The position numbers were made by a program, and so were the translations under genes. Positions 2,881-40,465 of a stretch of 40,762 nt of DNA are shown here, piece after piece. Source of the DNA: a virus; IMG/VR virus record IMGVR_UViG_3300042453_001733, positions 1 to 40,762 of that record; one strand, written 5' to 3'. Positions within the stretch are counted from its first letter, which is position 1. Each line of letters begins with the position of its first letter. Below the pieces are notes generated by a model. It saw only the letters and a program-made list of their open reading frames with translations, searched no databases and was not told the DNA's origin.

Positions 2881-2883
2881 TAT

Positions 2884-3801: not shown

Positions 3802-3884
3802 GATTAACTTTCTCAACTATCTGTATATTTTTATCAATTGGATTATTTGTTTTTTGGGGACTAAACAATGCTTATCCACAATAG
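3798..3884 (+). CDS. Tiny membrane peptide (28 aa)
   Basis: MRLTFSTICIFLSIGLFVFW then GLNNAYPQ. One hydrophobic segment. Overlap ATGA with the previous gene and the aggag before talC just after it support a real gene, but at 28 residues this is tentative. Confidence 0.5.
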   Translation: MRLTFSTICIFLSIGLFVFWGLNNAYPQ

Positions 3885-3896
3885 GAGATTAATTGC

Positions 3897-9939: not shown

Positions 9940-10796
9940 TGAAAATTACAATCTTAGGTTCTAGTGGGCAAATCGGTGCCTATCTAACAGAATATTTTCG
10001 TAATAAGGGTCATCAAGTTCATGAGTTTGATGTTGTGAATGGTAAGGATCAGGATATGACTCTTATTCCTAACCCAGAATTGGAAAGAGTAATTGAAGAT
10101 TCTGATTTTGTATTCTTTCTTGCATTTGATGTTGGTGGTTCTCGTTATCTTAAAAAGTATCAACATACTTTCCAATTCATTGATAACAACATCCGTTTGA
10201 TGGCGAATGCATTTGGACTTCTCAAAAAATATAATAAGAGGTTCATTTTTGCATCATCTCAGATGAGTAATATGAGTTACTCCCCATACGGTGTTCTCAA
10301 GAATGTTGGTGAACTGTATACCAAATCACTCAAAGGACTGATTGTTAAGTTCTGGAATGTTTATGGAATTGAAAGAGATCATGAAAAATCACACGCAATT
10401 ACAGATTTCATCCGCAAGGGTTTTGAAACTGGCGTTATTGATATGCTTACTGATGGTCAAGAAGAACGAGAGTTTCTATACGCAGAGGACTGCTGCGATG
10501 CACTTGAATCAATCATGGAAAACTATGATGATTTTACTCCAGAAGACAATCTTCACATCACCAGTTTCCACTCTACAAAAATCATTGATGTTGCTGGGAT
10601 GATTATGGGTCAATTTAATTTAATTGGTAAATATGATGTTAAGTTGCAACCATCAACTGAAAAGGATAGTGTTCAGTTGGATAAGAGAAATAAACCAGAT
10701 ACTTATTTAATGAAGTGGTGGGTCCCTAAAACTACAATTGATGTAGGAATTGCAAAAGTATTTGAGGCTATGAAGAATGTCTACATTCAAGATTAA
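9939..10796 (+). CDS. NAD-dependent epimerase/dehydratase (SDR)
   Basis: 285 residues. MKITILGSSGQIGAYLTEYF carries a G-x-x-G-x-x-G nucleotide motif, and Y-G-V-L-K supplies the YxxxK pair; EEREFLYAEDCCDAL is typical of extended SDR sugar enzymes. It probably converts a nucleotide sugar for the operon product; exact substrate cannot be read. Start overlaps the previous stop by one base. Confidence 0.8.
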   Translation: MKITILGSSGQIGAYLTEYFRNKGHQVHEFDVVNGKDQDMTLIPNPELERVIEDSDFVFFLAFDVGGSRYLKKYQHTFQFIDNNIRLMANAFGLLKKYNKRFIFASSQMSNMSYSPYGVLKNVGELYTKSLKGLIVKFWNVYGIERDHEKSHAITDFIRKGFETGVIDMLTDGQEEREFLYAEDCCDALESIMENYDDFTPEDNLHITSFHSTKIIDVAGMIMGQFNLIGKYDVKLQPSTEKDSVQLDKRNKPDTYLMKWWVPKTTIDVGIAKVFEAMKNVYIQD

Positions 10797-11577
10797 TCTC
10801 TATTGCAACGATTCTCTTCTACCATCTACTTCAGATAAAAATACTTCTAAGTATACTGAATGGGTTTATGATGGATCTGGATCGGTAAGTTTGTATGTGA
10901 ATCAGAGATCTCTTGATATTCTTCAAGATGTTTCTTCTACTCCAAAATATATTTGGCTTCTTGAATCAAAACAAATTATTCAAAATGTTTATGATTGGAT
11001 TCTTGAAAACTATGACTTTGTTGCTTCCAGGGTGGATGGTATTCTGAGTTGTGATCGTGAACTATGTGAGAAGTATCCAAAGTTTCAGTATGCATTGACT
11101 AATGCATCTCCTTGGATTGAAGAACGAAAAATCTATGAGAAGACAAAACTGGTTTCCATGATTTCTTCAAATAAATCCATGGTTCCTGGTCACATGAAAA
11201 GATTGGAATTTGTGAATAAATTTAGGGATCAAGTTGATCTTTATGGTCGTGGTTTTAGAGATCTGCCAAGAAAAGAAGAAGGTCTTAAGGATTATATGTT
11301 CTCTGTTGCCGTAGAGAATGCCGTCTATGATACATACTTTACAGAGAAACTTACTGATTGTTTCGCTACTGGAACAATCCCTATCTTCTATGGTTGTAGA
11401 GGAGTAACAGAGTATTTCAACGAGGATGGTATTATATTCTTGGATGATGACTTTGATGTTTCTACATTGACACCAGATCTTTATTATTCTAAAATAGATG
11501 CGATCAAGGATAACTTTGAACGTGCAAACAATCTGCCAGTGGCAGAAGATTATCTTTACGAAACTTACTGGAAATGA
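10777..11577 (+). CDS. GT10-family fucosyltransferase-like
   Basis: 266 residues. The C-terminal half has the alpha-1,3-fucosyltransferase motif: FSVAVENAVYDTYFTEKL then TDCFATGTIPIFYG, which binds GDP-fucose. Related sugars such as GDP-L-galactose could be used, which would fit the GME-like gene upstream. Overlaps the previous gene by 20 bases. Confidence 0.82.
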   Translation: MSTFKINLYCNDSLLPSTSDKNTSKYTEWVYDGSGSVSLYVNQRSLDILQDVSSTPKYIWLLESKQIIQNVYDWILENYDFVASRVDGILSCDRELCEKYPKFQYALTNASPWIEERKIYEKTKLVSMISSNKSMVPGHMKRLEFVNKFRDQVDLYGRGFRDLPRKEEGLKDYMFSVAVENAVYDTYFTEKLTDCFATGTIPIFYGCRGVTEYFNEDGIIFLDDDFDVSTLTPDLYYSKIDAIKDNFERANNLPVAEDYLYETYWK

Positions 11578-12353
11578 GTACTTACAAAGGTTGGGAAGCA
11601 GAAGAAAAAATTGCAATTGATTATCTAGAAACTTGCCGTAGTGCAGTTGCTGATGATGATATCTTTGCAAAATTTAAATCACTTCAGGGATATAAAAATA
11701 TTCTTGAACATGTAACTCCTCGTCAAGGTGCAGAATATCTTCAAGTTGCCATGGAAATGGCTGAAGATGCTCTACTTGAAAATCTAGAGGCGTTTAAAGA
11801 GAATGATACTATCGGAACTCCCGATACGTTCTCTTATCCAGAAACGGGTAAAATCTCTCCCACTACAATCCGATACATCAAGAATGTATTTGAGATGGCG
11901 ACTCTTCTAGGAGAAACTCCTATTAGTCGTGTAGTTGAAGTTGGTGGCGGGTATGGCGGACTTTGTAAGACCTTGAGTGTTGTCTGTGATTTTGATGAAT
12001 ATATTTTAGTCGATCTTCCAGAAGCTGTTGCAGTTCAGGAAAAGTATCTTAAGAACTTCCCTGAACTTTATGCAAAGTGTAAATTTATTCCTTGTGATGA
12101 ACTGGAAGAAGTAAAAGATGTCGATCTTTTCATTAGTAACTACGCACTTTCTGAGTGTGATTACGATACTCAAGTAAATTATTATGATAAGTTGGTATCC
12201 AATTCTAAGTTTGCTTACATTATCTACAATCTTGTCAACTTTAATGATTTCTACTATAATAAGTTTACTGAAAGGATGAGCGAACAATTTGAGTTTACTA
12301 CATCTAAAGATTATGAAAACACTGTAATTTTAGCTAAACTAAAAGAATCATGA
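11574..12353 (+). CDS. Putative sugar O-methyltransferase
   Basis: 259 residues. SAM motif VVEVGGGYGGLCKTL, then LVDLPEAV and ISNYALSEC, the pattern of the putative sugar O-methyltransferase family that occurs in bacterial surface-polysaccharide loci. The N-terminal 100 residues are helical. ATGA overlaps on both sides. Would methylate a glycan chain or terminal sugar. Confidence 0.78.
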   Translation: MSTYKGWEAEEKIAIDYLETCRSAVADDDIFAKFKSLQGYKNILEHVTPRQGAEYLQVAMEMAEDALLENLEAFKENDTIGTPDTFSYPETGKISPTTIRYIKNVFEMATLLGETPISRVVEVGGGYGGLCKTLSVVCDFDEYILVDLPEAVAVQEKYLKNFPELYAKCKFIPCDELEEVKDVDLFISNYALSECDYDTQVNYYDKLVSNSKFAYIIYNLVNFNDFYYNKFTERMSEQFEFTTSKDYENTVILAKLKES

Positions 12354-13141
12354 ACCGCATTAAAGATTACGATGAGTTGGAAGATCGGATTGTAGGATGG
12401 ATTTCCGAGTACTGTCTTACTCATCCCAAAATTAAAAGTTTGGTAGTAGGAATCTCTGGAGGAATTGATTCCTCCGTGGTTTCTACTCTTTGTGCTTTGA
12501 CTGGTTTGCCAACTTATGTGGTTGGAATGCCAATCAATCAACTTGAGAATCAAGAGTCACTTTCTGATGCTCATGGTAAGTGGTTGGAGTCAAAATTTAG
12601 TAATGTAAAGTTTATCAAAACTGATATGAGTTCGGTCTATGATTCTTTCCTTCAGACAATCTCTAATGATATTGGGGAAAACTTTGCAACAAATAAACTT
12701 GCACAAGCCAATACTCGTTCAAGGATTCGCATGGTAACTCTTTATCAAGTTGCCACAACAGTAAATGGTATTGTTGTTGGAACTGGTAATAAGGTTGAAG
12801 ATTATGGTGTAGGATTCTATACCAAGTATGGTGACGGTGGTATTGACATTGCCCCTATTGCAGATCTATATAAAACTGAAGTATGGATGATTGGTGAACA
12901 TCTTGGTGTAGATGAAAGAATTATTTCTGCACCACCTACAGATGGTCTTTGGGATGATGGAAGAACTGATGAAGATCAGATCGGCACTTCTTATGCAATG
13001 TTAGAATGGGTTATGGAAAAGGGTCTTCGTGAAGATCCAATGTTCTTGAACGAAGAACAGACCAATGCTATTAATGTATACCAGAAGTTTCATACACAAA
13101 ACAAACACAAGATGGTTGAAATTCCGACATTTAAGCTATGA
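12350..13141 (+). CDS. nadE: NAD synthetase (NH3-dependent type)
   Basis: 263 residues, full length for the ammonia-dependent form. Turns nicotinic acid adenine dinucleotide into NAD. ATP pyrophosphatase loop SGGIDSS at 36-42; GTGNKVEDYG and YGDGGIDIAPIADLYKTEV are NadE hallmarks. No glutaminase domain. Embedded by ATGA overlaps inside a glycan operon, where such a gene is not expected. It may support NAD-dependent sugar enzymes or restore NAD against NAD-depleting host defence; both are inference. Confidence 0.85.
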   Translation: MNRIKDYDELEDRIVGWISEYCLTHPKIKSLVVGISGGIDSSVVSTLCALTGLPTYVVGMPINQLENQESLSDAHGKWLESKFSNVKFIKTDMSSVYDSFLQTISNDIGENFATNKLAQANTRSRIRMVTLYQVATTVNGIVVGTGNKVEDYGVGFYTKYGDGGIDIAPIADLYKTEVWMIGEHLGVDERIISAPPTDGLWDDGRTDEDQIGTSYAMLEWVMEKGLREDPMFLNEEQTNAINVYQKFHTQNKHKMVEIPTFKL

Positions 13142-14283
13142 AAATAGGACTAATAGGCGCAGGGAGATTAGGAATTTGTCTTGCACTTCTTATGGAAAAT
13201 GCAGGATATGATGTTCTTGTCTCTGACATTCGTGAGGATTATGTAGAGAACCTCAATAAAAAAATTATTTCTAGTACAGAACCATTTGTACAAGAACACT
13301 TAAGACAAGCTAAGTACCTTGAAGCAACTACTGACAATAAGAAAGTGATTGCAGAGTGTGATATTATTTTCACTTTAGTAGCAACTCCATCTTTAGAAGA
13401 TGGTTCTTATGATGTAAGTTCTGTATGGGATGTTGTTCGTGATTTTCAAGAATCTCCAAATGTGGAAGGAAAAACTCTTGTGGTTGGATGCACTACAAAT
13501 CCTGGAGATTGTGCGAAGTTCCAAGAACAACTTAGTTCTTATGGTGTAAGTGTCGTCTATAATCCTGAATTTATTGCACAGGGATCTATAATTAAAGATC
13601 TTACCCATGCAGACATGGTTCTTCTTGGTGGAGATAATACTGAAACTTTGGAAATTCTTTCTGAGATTTACAAAAAAATTCAAGTTACTAAACCAGTTAT
13701 TTCAATCATGTCTTCGACATCAGCGGAGATAGTTAAGATTGCAATTAACTGTTTTATGACAACAAAAATTAGTTTTGCAAATATGATCGGAGAGGTTCTT
13801 ATTCTTTCTGGCCTTGAGGGTGAAATTGAATCGGTTCTTTCTTCTATTGCAAGTGATTCTAGAATTGGAAGTAAGTATTTGAAATTTGGATTTGGTTTCG
13901 GTGGTCCATGTCTGCCTAGAGATAATAGATCTTTCGGTAGGTATGCAGAAAAACTAGGATTGAAATATAATCTTGGTACAACTACTGATGATTTTAATAA
14001 TGAACATGCAAAGTTTTTGAAAAATTATTTCATTGGTAAGAATACTAAGAATCTTCCTTTCCACTTTGAATATATTTCATATAAGAAAGGAACCGATATC
14101 TTAACGGAAAGTCAACAATATAAACTTTGTTTAGATCTTTTGGATGCTGGATATGAAGTGTACGTTTCCGACAATCCACATATTATTAAACAAGTAGAGG
14201 ACTTGTTAATTAGTAAATATGGTGATAAAATACACTTTGGGGAACCACCAGAAAAAGTTAATACATTTGCAATTAAACTATGA
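13138..14283 (+). CDS. UDP-glucose/GDP-mannose dehydrogenase family
   Basis: 381 residues. Three-part fold: NAD domain with GLIGAGRLGICLA at 4-16, central domain with K200 and N204 (EIVKIAINCF), catalytic C258 in GFGGPCLPRD, and a shortened C-terminal nucleotide-sugar domain. Four-electron oxidation of a nucleotide-hexose to a uronic acid. The C-terminal part diverges from characterised enzymes, so the substrate is uncertain. Confidence 0.85.
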   Translation: MKIGLIGAGRLGICLALLMENAGYDVLVSDIREDYVENLNKKIISSTEPFVQEHLRQAKYLEATTDNKKVIAECDIIFTLVATPSLEDGSYDVSSVWDVVRDFQESPNVEGKTLVVGCTTNPGDCAKFQEQLSSYGVSVVYNPEFIAQGSIIKDLTHADMVLLGGDNTETLEILSEIYKKIQVTKPVISIMSSTSAEIVKIAINCFMTTKISFANMIGEVLILSGLEGEIESVLSSIASDSRIGSKYLKFGFGFGGPCLPRDNRSFGRYAEKLGLKYNLGTTTDDFNNEHAKFLKNYFIGKNTKNLPFHFEYISYKKGTDILTESQQYKLCLDLLDAGYEVYVSDNPHIIKQVEDLLISKYGDKIHFGEPPEKVNTFAIKL

Positions 14284-15140
14284 TTGGGTATAACAGGTTA
14301 GGAAGTAATGGTCGTCTGGGAAACCAGATGTTTCAATACGCAGCACTTAGAGGTATTGCTGCAAAAAGAGGATATGATTGGGTTGTTCCTCCAGATACTT
14401 ATGACCATAAAGATAATTATGGTCTCTTCGAAACATTTGAGATGAAAAATATCAAAGAAGGTAATATTGGATTTGTTAATGGCCAATATGTTCAAGAGAA
14501 TGACCATTGTTTTGCTTTAGAATTTTTTGAAGAATGCCCTGATAATGTAAGCCTTGATGGGTATTTTCAAACAGAAAAATATTTCAATCATATCGCAGAA
14601 GAAATCCGTGAAGATTTTACATTCAAGAAAGGATATTTAGAGCCATGCCAAGAGTATATTAACTCTTTGGATACTCCTCCTATTTTTCTTCACATTCGAC
14701 AAAGTGATAATATTGGAAGAGAACAATATCACCCCATTCTTCCTATTTCTTATTTTGAAGAAGCGTTGAGTAATTGGTCTGATGATACTTTATGTTTTGT
14801 TTTTACTGATGATATAGAATGGTGTAAATCCCAAGAATTTTTTAAACAAGATCGATTCTTGTTTAACGAAAGTAATGGAAGATATTCATATCGTACTATT
14901 GATGGTACTGGACAAATGCAAAATACTCTTCTTCCACAAGTTGATTTGTGTTTGATGACTCTTTGTTCTGGTGCTATTATTGCAAACTCTTCGTTCTCCT
15001 GGTGGGGTGCTTGGTTGCAAAATGATCGTGGTAAAGTAGTTGCTCCAGATCCTAAGAAGTGGTTTGGTACTGCAATGACTCACCTAGATACTTCTGATAT
15101 TGTTCCTGATCGTTGGATTATTCAAGAGTGGAGTAAATAA
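14280..15140 (+). CDS. GT11 fucosyltransferase-like, copy 1 (altered motif)
   Basis: 286 residues. N-terminal GRLGNQMFQYAALRGIAA and C-terminal IIANSSFSWWGAWL are GT11 (alpha-1,2-fucosyltransferase) hallmarks. The donor motif usually H-x-R-R-G-D reads HIRQSDN, losing the second Arg and Gly, and a loop present in the other two copies (about 20 residues) is missing. It may have changed donor or be weakened. Confidence 0.85.
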   Translation: MIGYNRLGSNGRLGNQMFQYAALRGIAAKRGYDWVVPPDTYDHKDNYGLFETFEMKNIKEGNIGFVNGQYVQENDHCFALEFFEECPDNVSLDGYFQTEKYFNHIAEEIREDFTFKKGYLEPCQEYINSLDTPPIFLHIRQSDNIGREQYHPILPISYFEEALSNWSDDTLCFVFTDDIEWCKSQEFFKQDRFLFNESNGRYSYRTIDGTGQMQNTLLPQVDLCLMTLCSGAIIANSSFSWWGAWLQNDRGKVVAPDPKKWFGTAMTHLDTSDIVPDRWIIQEWSK

Positions 15141-16036
15141 TGGCTGTTTCATTTAAAGGACTTGGTAACGAGGGGCGCCTTGGAAACCAAATGTTTCAAT
15201 ACGCATTCATTCGCGGTCTTGCTGCAAATCGCGGATTTGATTGGGTTGTTCCTGGTCCAGAGGCTGATCGTTTGGACAACTATGGTTTGTTCGATGCATT
15301 TGAACTAACTAACTGTGATATAGAAAAGAATACTGGAGAACCCTTCTACAAAACTGTAGAGTACAGGGACATGCACTTTAATGAAGAAATCTTCAATAAG
15401 TGTGAAGACAATACAAACTTCTCCGGTAATTTCCAGACAGAGAGATACTTCGAAGCTATTTCCGATAGTATTCGAGAAGATTTTACTTTCAGGAGTTATT
15501 ATCTAGAACCCTGTCTGGAGTATATTAATTCTCTTGGCGGTAGAGAAAACTGCATCTTCCTACATGTTCGTCGTGGTTCTCCAAATCTAACTGGACGCAG
15601 AGGAGAAAAGTGGTCTTATCAGATGGTTCAGGAATACCATCCGCTTTGTAAAAAAGAATACTATATTGAAGCCCTGAAAGAGTTTCCTGAAGATAAGAAC
15701 GTGATTGTTGTTTCAGATCTTATTGATTGGTGCAAACGTCAAGATTGGCTGCAGGGTGATCGATTCCATTTTTCTGATTCATCTTATGAAACCTTCGGAG
15801 ATGGTGCCTCAGTCCCCTACATTGATCTTTGTCTTATGTCTCTTTGTGGTGGTGCGATTATTGCCAATTCTTCTCTGAGTTGGTGGGGCGCATGGTTACA
15901 GAATGATGCTGGTAAGGTTGTCGTTCCAGATCCTTGGTTCGGACCTGCTTATGCACACTACAACATGAAAGATATGATTCCTCAACGTTGGATTAAAATT
16001 CATAATGATCCCTCTCCAGTTCCCGCAGAAACATGA
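15140..16036 (+). CDS. GT11 fucosyltransferase-like, copy 2
   Basis: 298 residues. GRLGNQMFQYAFIRGLAA, donor motif HVRRGSPN, and GGAIIANSSLSWWGAWL. Adds fucose or a related sugar from a GDP donor to a glycan. Starts on the stop of copy 1 (taATG). Paralogous to the genes at 14280 and 16841, with the strongest likeness to the latter. Confidence 0.88.
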   Translation: MAVSFKGLGNEGRLGNQMFQYAFIRGLAANRGFDWVVPGPEADRLDNYGLFDAFELTNCDIEKNTGEPFYKTVEYRDMHFNEEIFNKCEDNTNFSGNFQTERYFEAISDSIREDFTFRSYYLEPCLEYINSLGGRENCIFLHVRRGSPNLTGRRGEKWSYQMVQEYHPLCKKEYYIEALKEFPEDKNVIVVSDLIDWCKRQDWLQGDRFHFSDSSYETFGDGASVPYIDLCLMSLCGGAIIANSSLSWWGAWLQNDAGKVVVPDPWFGPAYAHYNMKDMIPQRWIKIHNDPSPVPAET

Positions 16037-16854
16037 ACGATTTAACATTCCTTTTACCTTGTCGTATTGAGTCAGAAGACAGGCTCAGAAATGTAGTTAC
16101 ATCTGTTACATTTCTATTAAAAAACTTTCCAGAATCGAAAGTTATTTTAAAAGAGGTTGATACTCAATCTAAATTTAAATTTAGAGCCCTTCCTGTCATT
16201 AAAAAATATGCAGATACCAAGAATCTAACTCATATTTTTGAAGAAAGTGACGAAAAGTTTTTTCATAAAACTCGCATATTAAATGATCTCTTAGTTGCTT
16301 CTGATACTGAGATCGTTTATAATCATGATGTAGATATTGTTCTTCCTTTGGGTAGTTACATTTCTGCGTATACACAAATCAAATCTGGTCAGTGTGATGC
16401 TGTATATCCTTTTGGGTGTGGAGTTTATCAATGGGCTGTAAACTATTCTGAAGATTTGATGTTCAAATTTTTAGATTCTAGTTTTGATCTAAATGTTTTA
16501 ACCGAATCTAAGTTTAGGGTTGCTTCATCTATTGGATGGGGTCAAATGATTAAAAGACAAACAGAAATTGAAGTAGGTTTCTGGAATGAAAATTTCATTT
16601 CTTGGGGAGCTGAAGATTGTGAATTTTATTTCAGATTAAATTCTTTTGGTCGCAAAGTTGGTAGAGTTTATGATGATGTCTATCATTTTGAACATGGTAG
16701 AACGTTTAACTCACATTACCATAATCCGAAGTTCATGGATAATCATAATCTTTGGCAAAATATTAGAACTTGGGATGCTAAAACATTAGTTAAATATTAT
16801 CAATCACAAGATTACATTAAAAAAAGAGGAGAACAATTAAATGTTAGCGTTTAA
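16033..16854 (+). CDS. Glycosyltransferase, WGxED type
   Basis: 273 residues. N-terminal MNDLTFLLPCRIESEDRLRN fits a GT-A fold, D-V-D at NHDVDIVLPLG binds metal and nucleotide sugar, and SWGAEDCEFYFRL is the acceptor-side motif of galactosyltransferase C-terminal (GT7/GT2-like) domains. Placed between two fucosyltransferase copies. Sugar unknown. Confidence 0.78.
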   Translation: MNDLTFLLPCRIESEDRLRNVVTSVTFLLKNFPESKVILKEVDTQSKFKFRALPVIKKYADTKNLTHIFEESDEKFFHKTRILNDLLVASDTEIVYNHDVDIVLPLGSYISAYTQIKSGQCDAVYPFGCGVYQWAVNYSEDLMFKFLDSSFDLNVLTESKFRVASSIGWGQMIKRQTEIEVGFWNENFISWGAEDCEFYFRLNSFGRKVGRVYDDVYHFEHGRTFNSHYHNPKFMDNHNLWQNIRTWDAKTLVKYYQSQDYIKKRGEQLNVSV

Positions 16855-17695
16855 TGAACTTGGCAATACTGGCCGACTTGGAAATCAAATGTTCCAGTAT
16901 GCAGCACTCAGAGGAATTGCTGCTGCAAAAGGATATGATTGGTGCATCCCACCTTTTACTACACCAAGAATTGATAATTACAGCCTTGCAAATTGTTTCC
17001 TTATGGAAGGAGTCAAGTCAACTAATCAATACATTCTTGATCGCGGACAAGCTCCTGTAGTTGTTGAGAAACATTTTCATTTTGATGAAGAACTACTTCA
17101 ATTGTGCCCTAATGATGTTTCACTTCAAGGATTTTTCCAAAGTGAAAAATATTTTGCACACATCAAGGATGAGATCCGTAAAGAGTTTACCTTTCATAAA
17201 GATCTGACTACTCCTGTTCAAGGATTCTTGAGTGAACTTAAAGATCCCATTTTTCTCCATGTTCGCCGTGGTGATCCAAATCTTGTAGATGCTCGTGGAT
17301 TTAAGTGGTCATACACTCAATGTTCTGATCAACATCCACCACAACCACTAGAATATTACGAACAGGCTCTTGCAATGTTCCCTGAGGATCAGGAAGTAGT
17401 TGTAGTTTCTGATTCTCCCGAGTGGGTTATGGAACAGGAACTGTTTAAACCAGATCGTTTCTATGTTTCTACACCTGAAGAAAAATACCCCGATGGATCT
17501 TATACCCCTTATGTGGATCTCTGTATCATGGCTAATTGTAAGGGTGGTATTATCGCTAACTCTACACTTTCTTGGTGGGGTGCTTGGTTGCAAAATGGCG
17601 TTGGTAAGATTGTAGCACCTAAGATGTGGTTTGGTCCTGCGTATTCTCAAAATGATACTAAGGATCTCTACTGTGAGGGTTGGGAAGTTATCTGA
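16841..17695 (+). CDS. GT11 fucosyltransferase-like, copy 3
   Basis: 284 residues. GRLGNQMFQYAALRGIAAAK, donor motif HVRRGDPN, GGIIANSTLSWWGAWL. Has its own strong ribosome site (aggag before 16841) though it overlaps the previous gene by 14 bases. The standard R-R-G-D in this copy suggests it is the most active of the three. Confidence 0.88.
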   Translation: MLAFNELGNTGRLGNQMFQYAALRGIAAAKGYDWCIPPFTTPRIDNYSLANCFLMEGVKSTNQYILDRGQAPVVVEKHFHFDEELLQLCPNDVSLQGFFQSEKYFAHIKDEIRKEFTFHKDLTTPVQGFLSELKDPIFLHVRRGDPNLVDARGFKWSYTQCSDQHPPQPLEYYEQALAMFPEDQEVVVVSDSPEWVMEQELFKPDRFYVSTPEEKYPDGSYTPYVDLCIMANCKGGIIANSTLSWWGAWLQNGVGKIVAPKMWFGPAYSQNDTKDLYCEGWEVI

Positions 17696-18501
17696 TGGAA
17701 TCTGCTGTTATGGATAAAAATAAATCTGCCTATAAACTAAAAGGTATTGGTCCAATTTATTATATCAATTTGGATGATCAACCAGAAAGACAAGCTTACA
17801 TGGAAACCATGTTTTCTTACTGGGATATCGAAAACTATGAACGTATTTCTGCCTATGATGGTAGAAATGATGATCTGAGTGACATTATTCATGGCAGGTA
17901 TCCAAGTAATATGAGTTCGGGTGAGATTGGGTGTGTAACCTCTCACCTCAAACTTCTAAAACATTATTTGGAAACATCGGATTCCCCATATTGTATTGTT
18001 ATGGAAGATGATGTTGATATTAGTACTGCAAAGTATTGGAACTTTACGTGGAATCAATTTGTTGCACGACTTCCATATGATTATGATGTAGTTCAACTTG
18101 CTATTATTTGTCCAGGAACTTTACATGTAAATCTACATCGTCGTTTTGTAAATGATTTTTCCACAGCATGTTATGTTATTACTCGTCATCATGCAGAAAA
18201 AATCGTAAAATTTCATTGTCGTGGTGATAAATATAAACTTGATTATAATATCAAACCTCGCGCAGTTGCAGATGATCTAATTTATAATTCAGGAAATACC
18301 TTTGCCATTCCTCTTTTCCTTTATAAGATTGAATTGGGTTCTTCTATTCACCCAGAACATATTGAAATTTTCCATCGTGGATCTCATGATGGACTTCGTA
18401 ACCTTTGGGAAACCCGTGGTTCTGATTTGGAATTAGAAAAACTTATGGACTATGATCCATATTTGGGAAGAACTTCTGAAGCTCAACCTCCACAAGAATA
18501 A
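17695..18501 (+). CDS. GT25-family glycosyltransferase
   Basis: Start at ATG 17695, overlapping the previous stop (tgATG); an earlier ATG at 17680 is inside the previous gene. 268 residues. IYYINLDDQPERQAYMETMF near residue 20, GEIGCVTSHLKLLKHYL and IVMEDDVDIS are the GT25 pattern (LPS galactosyltransferases, collagen-type transferases). Last transferase of the operon. Confidence 0.85.
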   Translation: MESAVMDKNKSAYKLKGIGPIYYINLDDQPERQAYMETMFSYWDIENYERISAYDGRNDDLSDIIHGRYPSNMSSGEIGCVTSHLKLLKHYLETSDSPYCIVMEDDVDISTAKYWNFTWNQFVARLPYDYDVVQLAIICPGTLHVNLHRRFVNDFSTACYVITRHHAEKIVKFHCRGDKYKLDYNIKPRAVADDLIYNSGNTFAIPLFLYKIELGSSIHPEHIEIFHRGSHDGLRNLWETRGSDLELEKLMDYDPYLGRTSEAQPPQE

Positions 18502-31927: not shown

Positions 31928-32530
31928 ATGATTAAAGTAATAGATGATGCAATCCCAAAAAGATACCAAACTGAAATTATAGAAAAGGTATTTCGTCCTG
32001 GGTTTAAATGGGGTTATAGTCCTACGATTGTTAACCACAAAACTGGAGAAGGATTTACTTATGGATTTTGTAATCCATTAGGAAATTATAGTCAGGGGGT
32101 AGTTGATGTTGAAAATTTTCACTTCTTTCTTCCCCTGACTTATTGTATCTCCGAAAAATCTGGAGTTGATTTTGAGTCAATTTTAGCTGCTAGATCATTC
32201 TTACAAGTTCCAAGTAATTATGAACAAGATCATGGACACTTTCATGTTGATTTTACTTTCCCACATTTAGTATTTTTATACTATGTAAATGATTCTGATG
32301 GTGATACAATTATTTCTAAGAAGAAATATGACCATATAAATGGTACTCTTGAAAGTATTGAAGATTCTTTAATACTTGAAAAAGTTACTCCTAAACAAGG
32401 CAGGGCTGTAATTTTTGATGGACTACTTTATCATGCTGGTGGTATTCCCAAGAAAAATACCAGGTGTGTTATCAACTTTGATTTATCGGTCCACAAAACT
32501 ATGAATTTTGTTAACTATCTACAAACATGA
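31928..32530 (+). CDS. 2OG-Fe(II) oxygenase
   Basis: 200 residues. Iron ligands H106-V-D108 in HFHVDFTFPH, distal H169 in LLYHAGG, and R179 for 2-oxoglutarate; GRAVIFDGLLYHAGGIP is the typical end of the prolyl-hydroxylase-like fold. All four site residues are present, so it should be active. First gene of the second accessory island. Substrate unknown. Confidence 0.82.
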   Translation: MIKVIDDAIPKRYQTEIIEKVFRPGFKWGYSPTIVNHKTGEGFTYGFCNPLGNYSQGVVDVENFHFFLPLTYCISEKSGVDFESILAARSFLQVPSNYEQDHGHFHVDFTFPHLVFLYYVNDSDGDTIISKKKYDHINGTLESIEDSLILEKVTPKQGRAVIFDGLLYHAGGIPKKNTRCVINFDLSVHKTMNFVNYLQT

Positions 32531-32748
32531 AAAATATTGTATGGAGGTTATGGGCAAAAGCTTTGGGAGAAAAAGCTCATAAAAAAGATCATGTTGCTGA
32601 TCAAGTTGCAATTATTCGTACAATAATTTTTATAACCTATTTAATTACTAATTGTTTTATTGTCGCTGGGGTAATCCGACACTGGAATGATACTTCTCCA
32701 GAAATTTATATAGAATTAAAGATGGAAGATCTAACCCATTCGGCATAA
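32527..32748 (+). CDS. Small membrane protein (73 aa)
   Basis: Basic N-terminus (MKNIVWRLWAKALGEKAHKK), a membrane helix at about 30-48 (TIIFITYLITNCFIVAGV) and an acidic end. Starts in the previous stop (ATGA); its 3' end overlaps the opposite-strand methyltransferase by 43 bases. Confidence 0.62.
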   Translation: MKNIVWRLWAKALGEKAHKKDHVADQVAIIRTIIFITYLITNCFIVAGVIRHWNDTSPEIYIELKMEDLTHSA

Positions 32749-33242
32749 ATTCTATGATTATGATCCCATTTCAAATCAGTACATTCAAATCCAAAGTGAT
32801 TTGAAAATTTTTTGTGAATCTCAAAAGACCACGGAAAAAAATCTATTTCTTGACACTCTTGGTTCCCGTGATCTTTTCTTCCAGGATTACACCTCCAATA
32901 AATTCTTGCAGTAGGATTCAATAAGTTTACTAAAGAATTAATTTCTGATATAATTTTATCACCTGGGCCAAAATTTATACTACCTAAACAAAAGGCAACA
33001 TCAAATTTTTGATCTGTCTTAAATTTATCTATTGTTACTTTATAATCTGCTTGATCAAACGCGGGATCTATTCCAATCAAATTTTCGATCTTTCCTTTGA
33101 ATGGATTTGGTCCACAACCAACATCCAAAACCCATTCGTCATCTGCAACATTATTAATCAAGTTCCATCCAGAGTATAGATATTGATCTAAATTACTTTT
33201 CCACTTTGTCCCAAAGTATTCATTTAGTTGTTCCTGGTTCAT
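32706..33242 (-). CDS. SAM-dependent methyltransferase-like (minus strand)
   Basis: Start set at the ATG whose complement is 33240-33242 (MNQEQLNEYFGTKW); the open frame continues upstream to 33347 but would then be antisense to the next gene. 178 residues. Motif I WVLDVGCGPNPF, acidic loop GIDPAFD and FCLGSINFGPGD mark a class I methyltransferase. Substrate unknown. Its start codon overlaps the start of the plus-strand gene at 33241, so each promoter must lie inside the other gene. Confidence 0.75.
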   Translation of the reverse strand: MNQEQLNEYFGTKWKSNLDQYLYSGWNLINNVADDEWVLDVGCGPNPFKGKIENLIGIDPAFDQADYKVTIDKFKTDQKFDVAFCLGSINFGPGDKIISEINSLVNLLNPTARIYWRCNPGRKDHGNQECQEIDFFPWSFEIHKKFSNHFGFECTDLKWDHNHRIYAEWVRSSIFNSI

Positions 33243-33816
33243 GAAGTTACCTAAGAGAATATTTTTTACAGGAGTTCCTGGATCCCGTTGGAGTGGTATC
33301 GCCCAGACATTAGAAAAGATGTCTGGTATGAATACCTCTGACCGCACACCTGAGCGTGAATACGATCATCATAGTTATACTGGACACAAAGGTGCATACT
33401 TTGGGCCTGGAATGGAGTTTGAACCAGTTCTTGATGGGGATTATATTGATCAAGCATGGTTAGAACCTAATGGATGTAAACTCGTCAAGAGTCATGAGTG
33501 GTCATATTATCTAGGTGAAATAAAAGAAAAGTTTCCAGATGACTGGATCATGATGATATATCGTCCAGATATGGCTAGTTATGCCTGGTGGCATGAAGCT
33601 GGAGGATTTCAAATTCAGTATCCAAACTACAATGCATATAAAAATAGTGGTAACATGTTGAATGAAATTATGAAACAAAACTCTTGCATCTTAGAGTTTG
33701 GAATGTCAAATAAATGTAAGTGGGAATACTTTACATCTGAATGGATTTATGAGAAGTTTGGTGAAAGTATCGTAGTTGATAAAACATTTTCAGATATTTT
33801 GGTAACACTAGTATGA
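33241..33816 (+). CDS. Sulfotransferase-like P-loop protein
   Basis: 191 residues. FFTGVPGSRWSGIAQTLEKM is a Walker-A-like PAPS-binding loop, and WIMMIYRPDMASYAWW fits the second PAPS motif (x-Y-R-P/D). Such proteins occur repeatedly in cyanophages; they may add sulfate to surface glycans. Start codon overlaps that of the opposite methyltransferase (CATG). Ends with ATGA overlap. Confidence 0.65.
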   Translation: MKLPKRIFFTGVPGSRWSGIAQTLEKMSGMNTSDRTPEREYDHHSYTGHKGAYFGPGMEFEPVLDGDYIDQAWLEPNGCKLVKSHEWSYYLGEIKEKFPDDWIMMIYRPDMASYAWWHEAGGFQIQYPNYNAYKNSGNMLNEIMKQNSCILEFGMSNKCKWEYFTSEWIYEKFGESIVVDKTFSDILVTLV

Positions 33817-34814
33817 GTAATGATAATATTTTGATCGGACATTTGGGTTGGGATGGAGCACATTTTTTATGTGCCTGTCTTACTATGAGTGATCAAGTTT
33901 ACTTTAATAATTTTACTCTTCGTGGAAAAGTTGAGTATTATTTTAAAAATATGACCAATATTAGTAGAGTGAATGATAAACCCGTTTGGAATGATGTGTT
34001 CATGTTTTATGGAACTTCTTATCAATCGGAAAATTATATTCACTATAGAAATGTTTGGGTCAATGATTTCAATACTGATTACGATCAGTTTGATTTTAAT
34101 TCAAAGTCGGAACAAAAAACTCTTATATCCAGATTGCACGTACCGATTTATTACCCACTAACAAGTATGTTGGAGAAAAACATTTCACACCCTGTTGCGG
34201 ATATGTTTAGATCCAAATACTTTATTTGTTTAGTCAATACAAAACTTTTTGCCTCATTGAGAAGCGTAAAACTTGAAGAGGATAACAGAATAAAAGGTTC
34301 TTGGGATGATGATTTTGCTCCAATTCCAGATATAAAATGGTTTGATGGTCCGTTAACGAAGATGGATAAAATAACAAATTCAATAACTGTTAGTGAATTT
34401 CAATCATTACCGAAAAAAGTTAAGGATACTCTTATATCCCATCACGATAGTAACATGGAGGATCTTTTTAATTTAACTGAGTTATATAAAACTGACAATG
34501 ATTTATTGAAAACATTGATAACGCATCAGTGGGATTGTAATTGGTTCTTGAGTGAAGATGAGACCATTGAACAACTTAAATTTTTATATTTGGAAATGAA
34601 TCTGGGAAAATTAAATGAAAAAGTAATACGTGAAATGTACAAAGTGTGGATCCAGAAGATGGATTACATTAAAAAATGGTACATTAAAGATGAATCTAAG
34701 TTCATTTCATCAAGAGAACAAGAGTGCCCACCTGGATGTTGGACAAGCGAAAGATGGAAAGATGAAGTATCTCCATACCTTATGATAAATATTGATACAT
34801 TAGTAGATCAATAA
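33813..34814 (+). CDS. Unknown protein, tandem paralogue A
   Basis: 333 residues. N-terminus NILIGHLGWDGAHFLCACLT then MSDQVYFNNFTL looks like a strand-loop-helix such as a P-loop variant. C-terminal block THQWDCNWFLSEDETIEQLK then LYLEMNLGKLNEKVIREMY is shared with the next gene. I do not recognise the family; sulfotransferase-like fold is possible. Middle part differs between the two copies. Start overlaps the previous stop. Confidence 0.6.
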   Translation: MSNDNILIGHLGWDGAHFLCACLTMSDQVYFNNFTLRGKVEYYFKNMTNISRVNDKPVWNDVFMFYGTSYQSENYIHYRNVWVNDFNTDYDQFDFNSKSEQKTLISRLHVPIYYPLTSMLEKNISHPVADMFRSKYFICLVNTKLFASLRSVKLEEDNRIKGSWDDDFAPIPDIKWFDGPLTKMDKITNSITVSEFQSLPKKVKDTLISHHDSNMEDLFNLTELYKTDNDLLKTLITHQWDCNWFLSEDETIEQLKFLYLEMNLGKLNEKVIREMYKVWIQKMDYIKKWYIKDESKFISSREQECPPGCWTSERWKDEVSPYLMINIDTLVDQ

Positions 34815-34820
34815 TAAATT

Positions 34821-35741
34821 GTGACTAACAATATTCTCATAGGTGCTGAGGGAATAGACGGAGCTAATTTTTTGGCTTGTTGTCTTACCATGAGTGATGA
34901 AGTATACTTTGACAATTGTACTCTAGAAGAAAAAATAAAATTCTTTTTTAGGGGTATGGCTGACATTGAAAAGATAAATGGAATACCCATTTGGTCTGAT
35001 GTTTCTATGTTATTTCATAGTTTTTCTAGAGGTAAAAATAATTTAATATTTTCTACTTATCAATCTAAAAAAATTCATGACTCTCTTAACTCAACTAAAA
35101 CATTGATAAGCAAGGTATCAATGCCTCAACTTTTGCCATTACGAACATTAATGTCAAAAGATCCTGAGGATCCTTTGGTGCAATTATTTGAGTCAAAATA
35201 TTTTATTGTCCTAGTAAACCCAGATCTTTTCATTTCTTTAAGAACAATATTAGATAATGAAGATTCTTCTGTTCCTAATTTAGATTCATTCACTATTGAA
35301 AAATTTAATTCTCTACCAAAAAGAGAACAGGAAACGATTAAATCTGGTTATCAGTCAGATATTGAAAGATTATTTGCATTTAGACCTAGTGGACCTACAT
35401 TGCATTCATGGAATATGCATAATATGAAATGCGATATTGATTATAGGACACAACATGATGATGTTGATATGGATGCAATGGAGGAGATTTTTAATAAAAG
35501 TAAGGATTTTATGAAACCACTAATAACTCATCAGTGGGATTGTAACTGGTTCTTGAATGAAGATGATACCGTAGAAAATATTAAACTCTTATATTCTGAA
35601 ATGAATTTAGGAAAAGTTAACGAAAAATTAATTCGTAAAATGTATAATGTTTGGGTTGAAAGAATGGATTATATTAAGAAATCACATATAAAAGAGTTCG
35701 AATCTGCAATAAATAATGGTACATTTGTAAGTGAATACTAA
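34821..35741 (+). CDS. Unknown protein, tandem paralogue B, GTG start
   Basis: 306 residues from GTG 34821 (MTNNILIGAEGIDGANFLAC). Same N-terminal pattern and the same C-terminal block (THQWDCNWFLNEDDTVENIK, then MNLGKVNEKLIRKMYNVW) as the gene before. The copies are old and diverged, with different central inserts. Function unknown; keeping both suggests distinct partners or substrates. Confidence 0.6.
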   Translation: MTNNILIGAEGIDGANFLACCLTMSDEVYFDNCTLEEKIKFFFRGMADIEKINGIPIWSDVSMLFHSFSRGKNNLIFSTYQSKKIHDSLNSTKTLISKVSMPQLLPLRTLMSKDPEDPLVQLFESKYFIVLVNPDLFISLRTILDNEDSSVPNLDSFTIEKFNSLPKREQETIKSGYQSDIERLFAFRPSGPTLHSWNMHNMKCDIDYRTQHDDVDMDAMEEIFNKSKDFMKPLITHQWDCNWFLNEDDTVENIKLLYSEMNLGKVNEKLIRKMYNVWVERMDYIKKSHIKEFESAINNGTFVSEY

Positions 35742-35742
35742 A

Positions 35743-36408
35743 ATGTTAACAGGAAAAGAATTTGTAGCCAAAATTAAAGAAGGTAACGCAGAATTATTTG
35801 AACAATCTCGTTCAAATGTTCGTCGTTTCTTTGCTTCTAATCCAAGTAAAGAACATATGGTAGAGCACTTCCGTGGTCGCATGGTAAATGAAGCCATGAA
35901 TATGAAGGCTATTGCTGCTGAGGTTGCTTCTGCTCCTGCTTCTATGGATGTTACTGAACTAGAACTTCTCACCAAACAGGCACAAGACGAGGCAAAACAC
36001 TTCCGTATGGTAAAGGAAGTTATCGAACATATCTCTGGTGAACCCGTAGATGTTGACGCTGCTTTTGCTGCAGAACTTGCTGCGCCTCAGGCAAAGGGTG
36101 CAACCCTTCTAGACAAGTATGGTGCATCTGAAGACCCTGCTGCTCTTGCTGCTTACCAACTCGTTGCCGAGGGTCGTGCAGAGGCGGTATGGAACGAAAT
36201 GGCTGAGTGTGTAGAGGACGAGTTTATCTCTTCACGTTATGCTGCTATTGCTAAAGACGAAGGTTTTCATGCAAATATTGGTGGTTGGAAACTAGAGAAA
36301 CTTGTAGAAGGTGCTTCCGAACTTCAAGATCGTATTCTTGCAATGGTGGAACAAATGCGTTATGATCTTCTTGAGATCAGTAATAAAAATACTGCTATTC
36401 CTGTTTGA
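35743..36408 (+). CDS. Ferritin-like diiron protein
   Basis: Start at ATG 35743; GTG 35731 is in frame but overlaps the previous gene. 221 residues. Four-helix pattern with E50, E83-x-x-H86 (DEAKHF), E143 and E173-x-x-H176 (DEGFHAN): two E and two ExxH, a complete diiron set. Family role (oxygenase, desaturase-like or iron store) cannot be read. The codon use, rich in gct and other host-like codons, differs from the AT-rich genes around it. Confidence 0.75.
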   Translation: MLTGKEFVAKIKEGNAELFEQSRSNVRRFFASNPSKEHMVEHFRGRMVNEAMNMKAIAAEVASAPASMDVTELELLTKQAQDEAKHFRMVKEVIEHISGEPVDVDAAFAAELAAPQAKGATLLDKYGASEDPAALAAYQLVAEGRAEAVWNEMAECVEDEFISSRYAAIAKDEGFHANIGGWKLEKLVEGASELQDRILAMVEQMRYDLLEISNKNTAIPV

Positions 36409-36426
36409 TATAAATTCTTTTATATT

Positions 36427-36681
36427 ATGAGTTCGATTGAAAGAAGAAGACGCAAAGATAAAACACAAATAATTAAGTGGGTTAGTGCCTGTACAATACT
36501 CATCGCAATGGTGTTTCATGTACTGGGACTAACCCCTTGGAATAGCATTCTACAACTAGTTGGTGCATCTGGTTGGACTTATGTAGGATTAAAGTGGAAG
36601 GAACGTTCAATTGTTTTGAACTTCCTTCCACAATTTTTTATTATTATACCAGGACTGATTTACTTATTATTTTTTAAATGA
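36427..36681 (+). CDS. Two-helix membrane protein (84 aa)
   Basis: Basic N-terminus (MSSIERRRRKDKTQIIK), membrane segments at about 18-36 and 64-83, with WNSILQLVGASGWTYVGLKW between. Resembles the small DUF6552-type membrane proteins of marine phages, though I cannot be sure. Function unknown. Overlaps the next start (ATGA). Confidence 0.62.
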   Translation: MSSIERRRRKDKTQIIKWVSACTILIAMVFHVLGLTPWNSILQLVGASGWTYVGLKWKERSIVLNFLPQFFIIIPGLIYLLFFK

Positions 36682-37298
36682 AAAAAATGATTATTCTTAC
36701 TGGGCCACAAGGGTCTGGTAATCATCTTTGGTCTAAAATATTTTCACTTCATTCAGAAGTTTTTGGGTGGAAGACGCTCCTTGATAATTATTGGGAAGCA
36801 CATAGGTTTGCAGAACCATTCTGTGAGTATTGGAAAGAACCATCAAAACTTAAAGATTTTGATTGGTCTACTCATGATTATTTTTTCACCAGTATTAGTG
36901 TTCCTCTTGGTATTCAAGAAAAGAAATGGGAACCAAACATTATGTCATTTGTAAATGAAGTTGAAAATCTTGGTATTGGAACACAAATAGTAGTAGTTGG
37001 TAGAGATCAAAATATTCTTAGACATCAACAGAACCGTCTAAGAAAGGAAAACACTCTTCCTTTGTTTATGAAACAACTCCCTGAGTTTCATAATCCCATC
37101 TTTTTGAGCTATGAGTTATTGTATCTTTATAAACAAGATTACTTGAAGAGTTTGAATGTTGGTATACCCATAGCTTGGGATGATCCTAGAGTTTATGAAA
37201 TTTTATCAAATGATTCTAATGATAAGTACGTTCATCATGTAGAAGAATATTTCTTGGATAATTGCAATAAAACTGGTCAACCTCTTAAGTCATTATGA
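36678..37298 (+). CDS. P-loop sulfotransferase-like protein, copy 1
   Basis: 206 residues. MIILTGPQGSGNHLWSKIFS is a G-x-x-x-x-G-N/K-type loop; the Lys of a normal Walker A is Asn (SGNH). IVVVGRDQNILRHQQ fits the second PAPS motif. Distant sulfotransferase/nucleotide kinase-like fold. Tandem with the next gene (ATGA). Confidence 0.6.
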   Translation: MKKMIILTGPQGSGNHLWSKIFSLHSEVFGWKTLLDNYWEAHRFAEPFCEYWKEPSKLKDFDWSTHDYFFTSISVPLGIQEKKWEPNIMSFVNEVENLGIGTQIVVVGRDQNILRHQQNRLRKENTLPLFMKQLPEFHNPIFLSYELLYLYKQDYLKSLNVGIPIAWDDPRVYEILSNDSNDKYVHHVEEYFLDNCNKTGQPLKSL

Positions 37299-37942
37299 AA
37301 AAATTGGTCATTATTACTGGACCACAAGGATCTGGAAATCATTTCTTCAGTAGGGTCTTCAGCACTCATCCTAAAGTCGGTGGATGGAAAAGTTTGTTGG
37401 ATAAGTATTGGGTTCCAAGTGATGAAGAATACTTTGCTAAGTATTGGGTTAATCCAGAAGAATTATCTGAGAAAGATTTTGATGGGTATGATTATTGGTT
37501 GGCAAATGTAAGTTGCCCATTCTTTTATGATGGAGTAAGATATATTCCAAAGGTACAAGAATTTGCAGAGAAGGCTCAATCTCTAGGTATTGATGTTCAG
37601 ATTTGTATTATCGTAAGAGATCAAAACATCAACTCAGAACAACAAAAGAGAGTTCGTGGTGAAGTAACTTTACCTATTGCAATGGATTATTATCAAAATA
37701 ATATCATTGGAAATGGATTTAAAGTTCACTTTCTAGACAATGAAGCATTCTTTTTACATAGACAATATTATTTGAAGTGGGTGGGTGAACTCTTAGATTT
37801 CCCAATCGATTATAATAATCCCGACATTTTTAAATTTATCAGTGAGGATCCAAATAAAAAATACATTAAATATGTTGATCAATATTGGTTAGATGATGAA
37901 GTTTGGCATGGAATCAAATCCAAAAAAGAGAGAAACCAATGA
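37295..37942 (+). CDS. P-loop sulfotransferase-like protein, copy 2
   Basis: 215 residues. LVIITGPQGSGNHFFSRVFS then VGGWKSLLDKYW and CIIVRDQNINSEQQKR align with copy 1. Same Asn at the Walker A lysine place. Directly coupled to the radical SAM gene (ATGA), suggesting joint work. Confidence 0.6.
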   Translation: MKKLVIITGPQGSGNHFFSRVFSTHPKVGGWKSLLDKYWVPSDEEYFAKYWVNPEELSEKDFDGYDYWLANVSCPFFYDGVRYIPKVQEFAEKAQSLGIDVQICIIVRDQNINSEQQKRVRGEVTLPIAMDYYQNNIIGNGFKVHFLDNEAFFLHRQYYLKWVGELLDFPIDYNNPDIFKFISEDPNKKYIKYVDQYWLDDEVWHGIKSKKERNQ

Positions 37943-39231
37943 ACAAAGAAAATAAAACTTTTTGCATGGCTCCTTGGGTTCATATGAACATAGGGCCTAA
38001 CGGTGATGTTTACCCATGTTGTTTGATGCCTTTATGTGAGGTAGAGGAAAATATTTCTGATAATGGTATTGGGGAATCAACCTTAGAGGTTATCGCTTCC
38101 GAATGTAATGGTGCCCCAAGAGATTTTAGAATGGGTTCTCTAATGAATGAATCTCTTAAGGAGATTTGGAATAATGAAAACATGAGAGAACTTCGTAGGA
38201 ATATGATGGCTGGCAAAAAGTCAAATTATTGTACTACATGTTATAAAGAAGAAGAACTAGGCCATGGATCTCCTAGACAAACTTTTAATAATCTTTACGC
38301 TAATAATTATAAGTATGTTAAAGAGACAAAGGAAGATGGAACTTTTGAAAGATTCAATCTTGTTTATTGGGACTTTAGATTAACTAATATCTGCAACTTC
38401 AAATGTAGAATGTGTGGACCTGGATATAGTAGTTCTTGGGAACAAGAAATGAGAAAACAATTCAACATTGAAGGTGAATATCCAAAAATTGATATAGATA
38501 TGGTTCGTCAAGATATCGAACCATTATATGATATTGTTGAAGAAATATATTTTGCTGGTGGTGAGCCTTTAATTGCAGATCATCACTATGAAATTATGAA
38601 CAAACTAATTGAAAAGGGTAGAAATAAAGATGTTAGAATATCATACAATACAAATTTTAGTACTTTAAAATATAAAGATAATAATGTTTTAGATTTGTGG
38701 CAAAAATTTCCGAATTTACATCTGTCAATAAGTTTTGATGGTGCAGGAAAAAGAGGTGAGTTAATTAGGAAAGGATTTGATTGGCAAAAGTTTTTAGATA
38801 ACTTTAAAATGTTTAGGAGTAAGTTTCCTCGCAAAAGTGTATCAATTAATTTTGTCATTCAAGCTTTGAATTGTTTTCATTCTATGGATGCTCAGAAAGA
38901 ACTTTATTTAAGAGGTATAATTAATAGTTGGGATGACTTTAATTTGTGTTTGCTTCATACTCCAGAGTATCTCTCTGTTACCATTCTTGATTCTGAATTA
39001 AGAAAATCTTTGGGTGAAAAGATTAAATATCATATTCACAATTATCTTGTGCCTGCAAAAGCCGAAAAATCTATTAAACAATATATGTCAATTCTTAAAC
39101 TTTTATCCACTGAGAAAAATGATTATTTTATTCCCACTTTCAAGTCCTATGTTTCCACATTAGATATTATACGGAATGAGAATTCTTTAGAAGTTTTTCC
39201 TGAATTAGAGAGTATTTTACGCAATGATTGA
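37939..39231 (+). CDS. Twitch-type radical SAM enzyme 1
   Basis: Start ATG 37939 overlaps the previous stop. 430 residues. Radical SAM cluster C152-x3-C156-x2-C159 (CNFKCRMC). Upstream of it, C9, C27-C28, C98 and C101 (FCMAPWVHMNIGPNG, YPCC, YCTTCY) form a SPASM/twitch-like auxiliary-cluster region placed N-terminal to the core. IYFAGGEPLI is the GGE motif for SAM binding. Such enzymes modify peptides or sugars by radical chemistry. Substrate unknown. Confidence 0.85.
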   Translation: MNKENKTFCMAPWVHMNIGPNGDVYPCCLMPLCEVEENISDNGIGESTLEVIASECNGAPRDFRMGSLMNESLKEIWNNENMRELRRNMMAGKKSNYCTTCYKEEELGHGSPRQTFNNLYANNYKYVKETKEDGTFERFNLVYWDFRLTNICNFKCRMCGPGYSSSWEQEMRKQFNIEGEYPKIDIDMVRQDIEPLYDIVEEIYFAGGEPLIADHHYEIMNKLIEKGRNKDVRISYNTNFSTLKYKDNNVLDLWQKFPNLHLSISFDGAGKRGELIRKGFDWQKFLDNFKMFRSKFPRKSVSINFVIQALNCFHSMDAQKELYLRGIINSWDDFNLCLLHTPEYLSVTILDSELRKSLGEKIKYHIHNYLVPAKAEKSIKQYMSILKLLSTEKNDYFIPTFKSYVSTLDIIRNENSLEVFPELESILRND

Positions 39232-40465
39232 TAAAAGTAAAATTAATCTTTACGGAGAAGTTTTTTGTGTTGCGCCTTGGATGTGTTTAGACATTAGACA
39301 AGATGGAGAAGTGAAACCATGTTGTGTTTCTGAATATACTTATGGTGATATTAAAGAAAAATCTTTATGGGAAATTTGGAATGATGAACCAATAAAAAAA
39401 CTTCGTGAAGATATGATAAATGGAATACCAAATGAAAGTTGTCAAGTATGTTATAATAATCAAGCCGCAGGAAAAAGTTCTTTGAGGCAAGATTTTAATG
39501 GAGATTTATTTCATTTGTATAAAAAATTTGTTTATGGTACTAATGATGATTACACAGTAAATGAACCTGGATTTGTTTGGTGGGATCTGAAACTGAGTAG
39601 TAAATGCAACTTTAAATGTAGAATGTGTAGTGAAACTTCAAGTTCTAGTTTTGAGTTGGAAAAATTTGGAGAAATTTCTGGTAGATGGAATGCATCTGAA
39701 AAAACTTACGAAGAGGTAGAACCATATCTCGGAATGGTTAATCACTTATATTTTTCTGGTGGAGAATCTTTAATTATTGATGAACACTGGAAAATACTTG
39801 ATAAAGTTATTGAGTTGCGTAGAAATAATAAGGTAACAATAGCATATAATAGTAATTTTAGTAACCTTGTGTATAAAGGTAGACATATTTTTGATCTATG
39901 GGATCAGTTCAGTAGAGATGTTCAAATTCATATTAGTGTTGATGGTGTAGGTGCTAGAGGAGAGTTAATACGAAAAGGATTTAAGTGGGATAGATTTATA
40001 TCACATGCGGAACAATTTAGAAATAGATTTAAACACAAAGAACGCACCCATGAATTACACTTTGATTGTACTGTTCAAGCTTTAAATATTTTTGATGTTG
40101 TTAATTTACATCAATATCTTTATACTAGTGGATTAATGAAAAATATTGATTTCTTTTTTCTAAATTTTTTACAAACTCCAAGAGAACAATCGGTTTGGAT
40201 TCTAGATAAAAAGACAAAGGAGGCTGCAAAGGAAAATATAAGAAATCATATTGACAACTTTCTAGTTCCTAACAGATCAAAAAGGTCTGTAATTTTTTAT
40301 GAAAGTTTGATAACCTATATTGATTTGTATCAAGAACAAAAGTTGATCCCACAGTTCTTAGATTCAATGAGAAGATTTGATAAGATAAGAAACGAAAGTG
40401 TTATTGAAACATTTCCAGAACTTCAAAGAATCTGGGATGTTATCAAAGTTAAACCTAAAACTTGA
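39224..40465 (+). CDS. Twitch-type radical SAM enzyme 2
   Basis: 413 residues. Same layout as enzyme 1: N-terminal C15, C33-C34, C73 and C76 (FCVAPWMCLDIRQDG, PCC, CQVC) then the core cluster C128-x3-C132-x2-C135 (CNFKCRMC) and LYFSGGESLI. Overlaps enzyme 1 by eight bases. Two diverged copies in a row suggest sequential or paired modification. Confidence 0.85.
   Translation: MIDKSKINLYGEVFCVAPWMCLDIRQDGEVKPCCVSEYTYGDIKEKSLWEIWNDEPIKKLREDMINGIPNESCQVCYNNQAAGKSSLRQDFNGDLFHLYKKFVYGTNDDYTVNEPGFVWWDLKLSSKCNFKCRMCSETSSSSFELEKFGEISGRWNASEKTYEEVEPYLGMVNHLYFSGGESLIIDEHWKILDKVIELRRNNKVTIAYNSNFSNLVYKGRHIFDLWDQFSRDVQIHISVDGVGARGELIRKGFKWDRFISHAEQFRNRFKHKERTHELHFDCTVQALNIFDVVNLHQYLYTSGLMKNIDFFFLNFLQTPREQSVWILDKKTKEAAKENIRNHIDNFLVPNRSKRSVIFYESLITYIDLYQEQKLIPQFLDSMRRFDKIRNESVIETFPELQRIWDVIKVKPKT

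Follow-up and report, generated by a model that had tools for sequence, protein, structure and literature searches.

A linked methyltransferase-like, diiron, and P-loop gene module and a separable radical SAM pair share a cassette slot in a likely T4-like cyanophage fragment

INTRODUCTION

The locus analyzed here has its closest described relatives in one genomic region and in several protein families. In T4-like pelagimyophages and cyanomyophages, a hypervariable host-recognition cluster that includes glycosyltransferases and radical SAM cassettes has been reported near tail-fiber and neck genes (PMC7029224). At the protein level, the relevant families are the ferritin-like diiron oxidases and oxygenases, the sulfotransferase superfamily, and the twitch-domain radical SAM proteins of NCBIfam NF033640.

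We examined a stretch of 40,762 bases, the whole of IMG/VR record IMGVR_UViG_3300042453_001733 (here the window), in which an initial annotation had marked positions 33241 to 40465 as an accessory island and as a candidate undescribed system. The literature that we searched contained no description of a module combining a methyltransferase, a diiron protein, and P-loop proteins, so the system does appear to be undescribed; the limits drawn for it were wrong, since the studied island is a cassette slot that holds at least two separable modules.

RESULTS

The window carries tRNA genes, about 21 in all, along with a tmRNA-like gene, a transaldolase, a 6-phosphogluconate dehydrogenase, a pstS-like gene, and two photosystem II reaction-center genes. 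Two Synechococcus phages of about 240 kb, S-SCSM2R and S-SRM01, are its closest cultured phages over positions 1 to 22 kb. From this gene content and these nearest phages, a large T4-like cyanophage is the most likely source of the window, which would be a fragment of its genome. Inside the dense tRNA array, ARAGORN called a permuted tmRNA at 996 to 1295 with the tag ANNIVAFSRSKSTALV. An epimerase/glycosyltransferase cluster at 8319 to 18501, which includes an NAD synthase gene and two GT11 genes, matches S-SCSM2R at about 77%. In the lineage of the window, the slot is bordered upstream by a small gene at 32527 to 32748 and downstream by a gene, Z, from 40546 onward.

All of the open reading frames named in the initial annotation exist, and two further genes belong beside them: a minus-strand gene for a class I SAM methyltransferase-like protein (MT, 32706 to 33242) and a small plus-strand gene for a probable membrane protein of family DUF6552 (D, 36427 to 36681; Pfam E value, 6e-14). 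The remaining genes, all on the plus strand, encode a weakly sulfotransferase-like P-loop protein (A, 33241 to 33816), a fast-evolving protein (B1, 33813 to 34814) and its paralogue (B2, 34821 to 35741), a diiron protein (C, 35731 to 36408, starting at GTG 35731 or ATG 35743), two P-loop proteins (E1, 36678 to 37298, and E2, 37295 to 37942), and two radical SAM enzymes (R1, 37939 to 39231, and R2, 39224 to 40465). R1 starts at 37939 rather than at the program-listed TTG 37903, and the program-listed frame of MT begins earlier, at GTG 33347. MT and A are divergent, with their ATGs overlapping in the palindrome CATG at 33240 to 33243, while the ATGA coupling that had been reported is present at A/B1, D/E1, E1/E2, and E2/R1. 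The reported gene pairs are likewise genuine paralogues, at 47% identity for B1 and B2, 41% for E1 and E2, and 39% for R1 and R2. NG86 dN/dS values below 0.25 for all nine plus-strand genes in every comparison listed indicate that A, B1, B2, C, D, E1, E2, R1, and R2 are under purifying selection.

Loci L004 to L223 were obtained when R2, E, and C were used to search viral contigs; 94 neighborhoods remained after deduplication by the C gene, with the window and the bacterial loci counted in, and the 52 of these with at least 3 kb on either side of C are the basis of the co-occurrence counts. Because the scans were seeded by peptide patterns, the best 80 loci were kept, and the sets were chosen by C (near-duplicates may remain), the resulting fractions measure linkage, not abundance. 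E occurs in all 52 neighborhoods, in at least two copies in 50 of them, and MT occurs in 51, followed by A (29), D (18), B (16), R (11), a C26-type glutamine amidotransferase (3), and a cupin (2). Most often the genes run MT+ C+ E- E-, in some cases preceded by two A-like genes; the window type is MT- A+ B+ B+ C+ D+ E+ E+ R+ R+. The retention of MT, C, E, and E despite changed order and strand is stronger evidence than simple synteny, and these four genes very probably form one functional unit; B, D, R1, and R2 are optional to it.

Many uncultured T4-like phages carry the MT-C-E1-E2 set; of 20 carriers that are long or diverse, 7 have gp23, the capsid gene of T4 type, and 7 have psbA/psbD-type genes. 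C, E2, and B1 had zero protein matches among 50,697 deposited phage records, a protein search of deposited phages likewise yielded no cupin, and the stretches of S-SCSM2R and S-SRM01 that we inspected have no annotation corresponding to the C/E module; the psbA-psbD neighborhood of S-SCSM2R holds a different modification island, with 2OG oxygenases, glycosyltransferases, and amidinotransferases. That a gene set so nearly invariant in divergent T4-like phages has no match in those records, by searches with C, E2, and B1, indicates a viral function that is common yet overlooked by culture-based work.

When 84,980 species were scanned for C by a pattern-based method, which remote homologues could escape, four loci were recovered, none of them cyanobacterial, and on this result we rejected an origin of C as an auxiliary metabolic gene taken from a cyanobacterial host. 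A collinear chromosomal cluster is shared by Massilia atriviolacea and Janthinobacterium sp. strain UMAB-56; it comprises nucleotidyltransferase-like and unknown genes, an adenylate-forming-like gene, and a NitT/TauT-type ABC importer (the latter two named by inspection, with no Pfam match for the adenylate-forming-like gene) together with MT, A, a sulfatase-like gene, a 2H phosphoesterase, C, a cupin, and E. These were the only 2 of 295 genomes searched in that family to carry C, which makes the cluster uncommon in the family and perhaps mobile. It has the look of a small-molecule pathway, and its importer and adenylate-forming-like gene argue for a small molecule as the substrate. The two other loci come from metagenome-assembled genomes. 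In a Nitrosopumilaceae bin (L225), a truncated gene for a CCA-adding enzyme directly follows genes of phage-like character, and the contig is probably a chimeric assembly, so we did not count it as an archaeal occurrence; in its open reading frame at 2748 to 4730, a phage-type segment with a P-loop (SGSHGN) is joined to the C-terminal portion of that enzyme. A Rhodobacteraceae bin (L226) encodes a phage-type family B DNA polymerase and was judged by inspection to be a phage contig.

The motif DVGCGxN is near-invariant across 73 rows of MT sequences, and the homologue in Janthinobacterium has a match to Pfam Methyltransf_11 (E value, 6e-7), although the window protein by itself has no Pfam match. 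The sulfotransferase-like character that had been proposed for A finds weak support: 5 of 21 homologues match Sulfotransfer_3, at a best E value of 0.0015, and the A protein of the window matches no Pfam sulfotransferase profile. B varies from 0 to about 6 copies per neighborhood, and its structure model, which is of fair quality, has only weak, nonsignificant matches to sulfotransferase folds. B1, B2, E1, and E2 have nothing significant in Pfam, PHROGs, or NCBIfam. Profile comparison did not establish A, B, and E as a single superfamily: E aligns with A and with B at the P-loop only, and the comparison of A with B is not significant.

The diiron assignment made for C fits its ligand pattern, E54, E87xxH90, E147, and E177xxH180, which are invariant in 16 homologues, the bacterial ones included, while overall identity across phages ranges from 53 to 95%. 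By this E, ExxH, E, ExxH pattern C is a predicted ferritin-like diiron carboxylate protein. It falls under every curated family cutoff in profile searches, which makes an oxidase, an oxygenase, and other roles indistinguishable, and by sequence it has no significant match in the PDB.

The SGNH that the initial annotation noted in place of SGK in the P-loop paralogues is part of an invariant loop, GPQG[SA]GNH, present in 32 of 32 E sequences. All 32 therefore read GxxxxGNH where the Walker A motif calls for GxxxxGK[ST], and all 32 also lack the Lys/Arg of the sulfotransferase 5'-phosphosulfate loop, so that with the kinase and the sulfotransferase residues both missing, catalysis is not assured. 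No Pfam model fits E. The predicted structure of E1 is of high confidence (pLDDT, 92.6), and its best PDB matches are the PAP-bound human tyrosylprotein sulfotransferases TPST1 and TPST2 (E values, 1e-4 and 7e-4; TM score, about 0.46), with small P-loop kinases close behind; against a viral structure library, sulfotransferase-family proteins come out on top. Sulfuryl transfer may be the actual chemistry, at a probability of about a third. In a phylogenetic tree, E1 and E2 form separate clades (support, 100/99), which indicates that the pair is an old split, and the single bacterial copies fall inside the E2 clade.

That the loop is invariant even though both textbook catalytic residues are missing would accord with a non-enzymatic role, in which the P-loop proteins bind nucleotides as sensors or effectors and anti-defense or superinfection exclusion is what the module serves. 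The methyltransferase-like protein and the diiron protein that always accompany them speak against such a role, as does the context of the bacterial cluster, and we regard it as quite improbable. The kinases among the structural matches of E1 bear on another reading, in which the module modifies nucleic acid, either by DNA hypermodification or on tRNA, with the P-loop proteins acting as kinases on bases or tRNA and C acting as a hydroxylase like MiaE. One C homologue does match MiaE weakly (E value, 0.004), and the phage has many tRNA genes; however, E lacks the Walker lysine, the module neighbors structural genes rather than nucleotide metabolism, and no base-hydroxymethylating or thymidylate-synthase-like family recurs among the neighbors, which together make this reading improbable.

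R1 and R2 are two N-terminal-twitch radical SAM enzymes, as had been predicted for the twitch type: they score 375 and 329 bits against NF033640 (N_Twi_rSAM; cutoff, 170) and keep the CxxxCxxC motif (CNFKCRMC in both, at 152 in R1) together with N-terminal cysteines. In nearly all close relatives the two genes lie side by side, and a large share of these relatives lack C/E. R1-R2 without C or E is seen even on contigs as long as 239 kb and 138 kb, whereas phage contigs of 249 kb and 192 kb have C/E in a surrounding stretch devoid of R1-R2, and R1/R2 is thus an independent pair, separable from C/E. An alternative cassette in the same slot consists of an AMP-binding enzyme and a small DUF6356(-like) protein followed by R1-R2, with no C/E (L024, 6898 to 10008; L011, 5431 to 8532; and L018, 6792 to 10008; Pfam was run on L024 only). 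Because R1/R2 and C/E are found apart, we rejected the nine-gene island as a single unit; subsets of the genes originally listed travel together, and the list as a whole does not. A viral contig (L069; IMG/VR 3300009786_002507) has eight N_Twi_rSAM-like matches within about 14 kb.

SPASM/twitch radical SAM enzymes often use peptide substrates, and this, together with weak scores to NCBIfam peptide maturases, would accord with maturation of a RiPP by the radical SAM pair, with the remaining genes in tailoring roles. The pair is unlinked to C/E, though, and no precursor-like short open reading frame recurs with the module among the gene-family clusters, which leaves the peptide substrate, suggested alongside a sugar in the initial annotation, with no support. 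We consider RiPP maturation very improbable.

DISCUSSION

In this study, we characterized an island in a likely cyanophage fragment as a cassette slot with two modules, one of which, consisting of MT, C, E1, E2, and often A, would be a tailoring pathway for a small molecule or sugar; we assign this reading a probability of roughly 0.5. The initial annotation had suggested a modification pathway running through the whole island. Near-invariant linkage across divergent phages and two bacterial chromosomes supports a linked pathway for MT, C, E1, and E2, and in part for A, and not for the complete list, from which R1/R2 separate. Starting from this linkage, from the conservation and residue patterns, and from the predicted fold of E1, we infer the reactions, their order, the substrate, and the benefit. 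C would oxidize a small-molecule or sugar substrate, MT would methylate it, and E1/E2 (and A) would transfer a group to it, most likely sulfuryl and possibly phosphoryl. In this lineage, R1/R2, as an exchangeable second module, may either modify that product further or catalyze a separate reaction.

The benefit of the pathway may be tied to the host surface or to host recognition, given its location in phage genomes, where marine copies of the module adjoin tail-fiber-like and neck genes, the position reported for the host-recognition cluster (PMC7029224). Taken further, this setting raises the alternative that the module decorates the virion or host surface itself, with tail fibers or LPS glycans modified (by methylated, sulfated, or oxidized sugars) such that adsorption is altered or superinfection is blocked. 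Glycosyltransferase genes are also found beside such sites, the window has its epimerase/glycosyltransferase cluster at 8.3 to 18.5 kb, and the top PDB matches of E1 are protein sulfotransferases, but where the genes stand as MT C E E, which is the order seen most often in marine copies, no glycosyltransferase family recurs among the neighbors, and the bacterial cluster includes no tail fiber and does include an importer and an adenylate-forming-like gene. We therefore hold surface decoration to be rather doubtful and prefer the tailoring of a small molecule or sugar.

A more far-reaching version of the tailoring pathway can be advanced only tentatively: MT-C-E1-E2 might be an undescribed biosynthetic pathway that a rare bacterial gene cluster has in common with many T4-like cyanophages not yet cultured. 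Its P-loop proteins, with GPQGxGNH as a new signature for nucleotide binding, would carry out or make possible a group transfer without precedent, acting on an oxidized substrate. If the Janthinobacterium or Massilia strains prove workable, gene deletion combined with metabolomics could reveal the product, and the viral function would become testable.

Comparison with known systems places each component near a described family and at some distance from it. The host-recognition cluster resembles the setting of the module, but the portions of its description considered here present no methyltransferase-diiron-P-loop module, and the word "sulfotransferase" does not occur in that text (PMC7029224). 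R1 and R2 are clear members of the NF033640 twitch-domain proteins, and they differ from that family at large in being paired here and in having partners (DUF6552, DUF6356, and the AMP-ligase) that vary between lineages. C has the ligand pattern of the ferritin-like diiron oxidases and oxygenases and weak matches to all of them (PaaA/PaaC, AurF, MiaE, R2, and symerythrin), but it scores below each curated cutoff. E1 has its best PDB fold matches in the sulfotransferase superfamily (tyrosylprotein sulfotransferases), A matches Sulfotransfer_3 of that superfamily weakly, and the E loop and second motif (RDQN..QQ.R) are comparably placed; in contrast to that superfamily, the E proteins have no Lys/Arg in the PAPS loop, carry Gln for the Ser of the second motif, and are shorter, at 206 to 215 amino acids. 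The invariant GPQGxGNH marks a P-loop type that fits neither the kinases nor the sulfotransferases.
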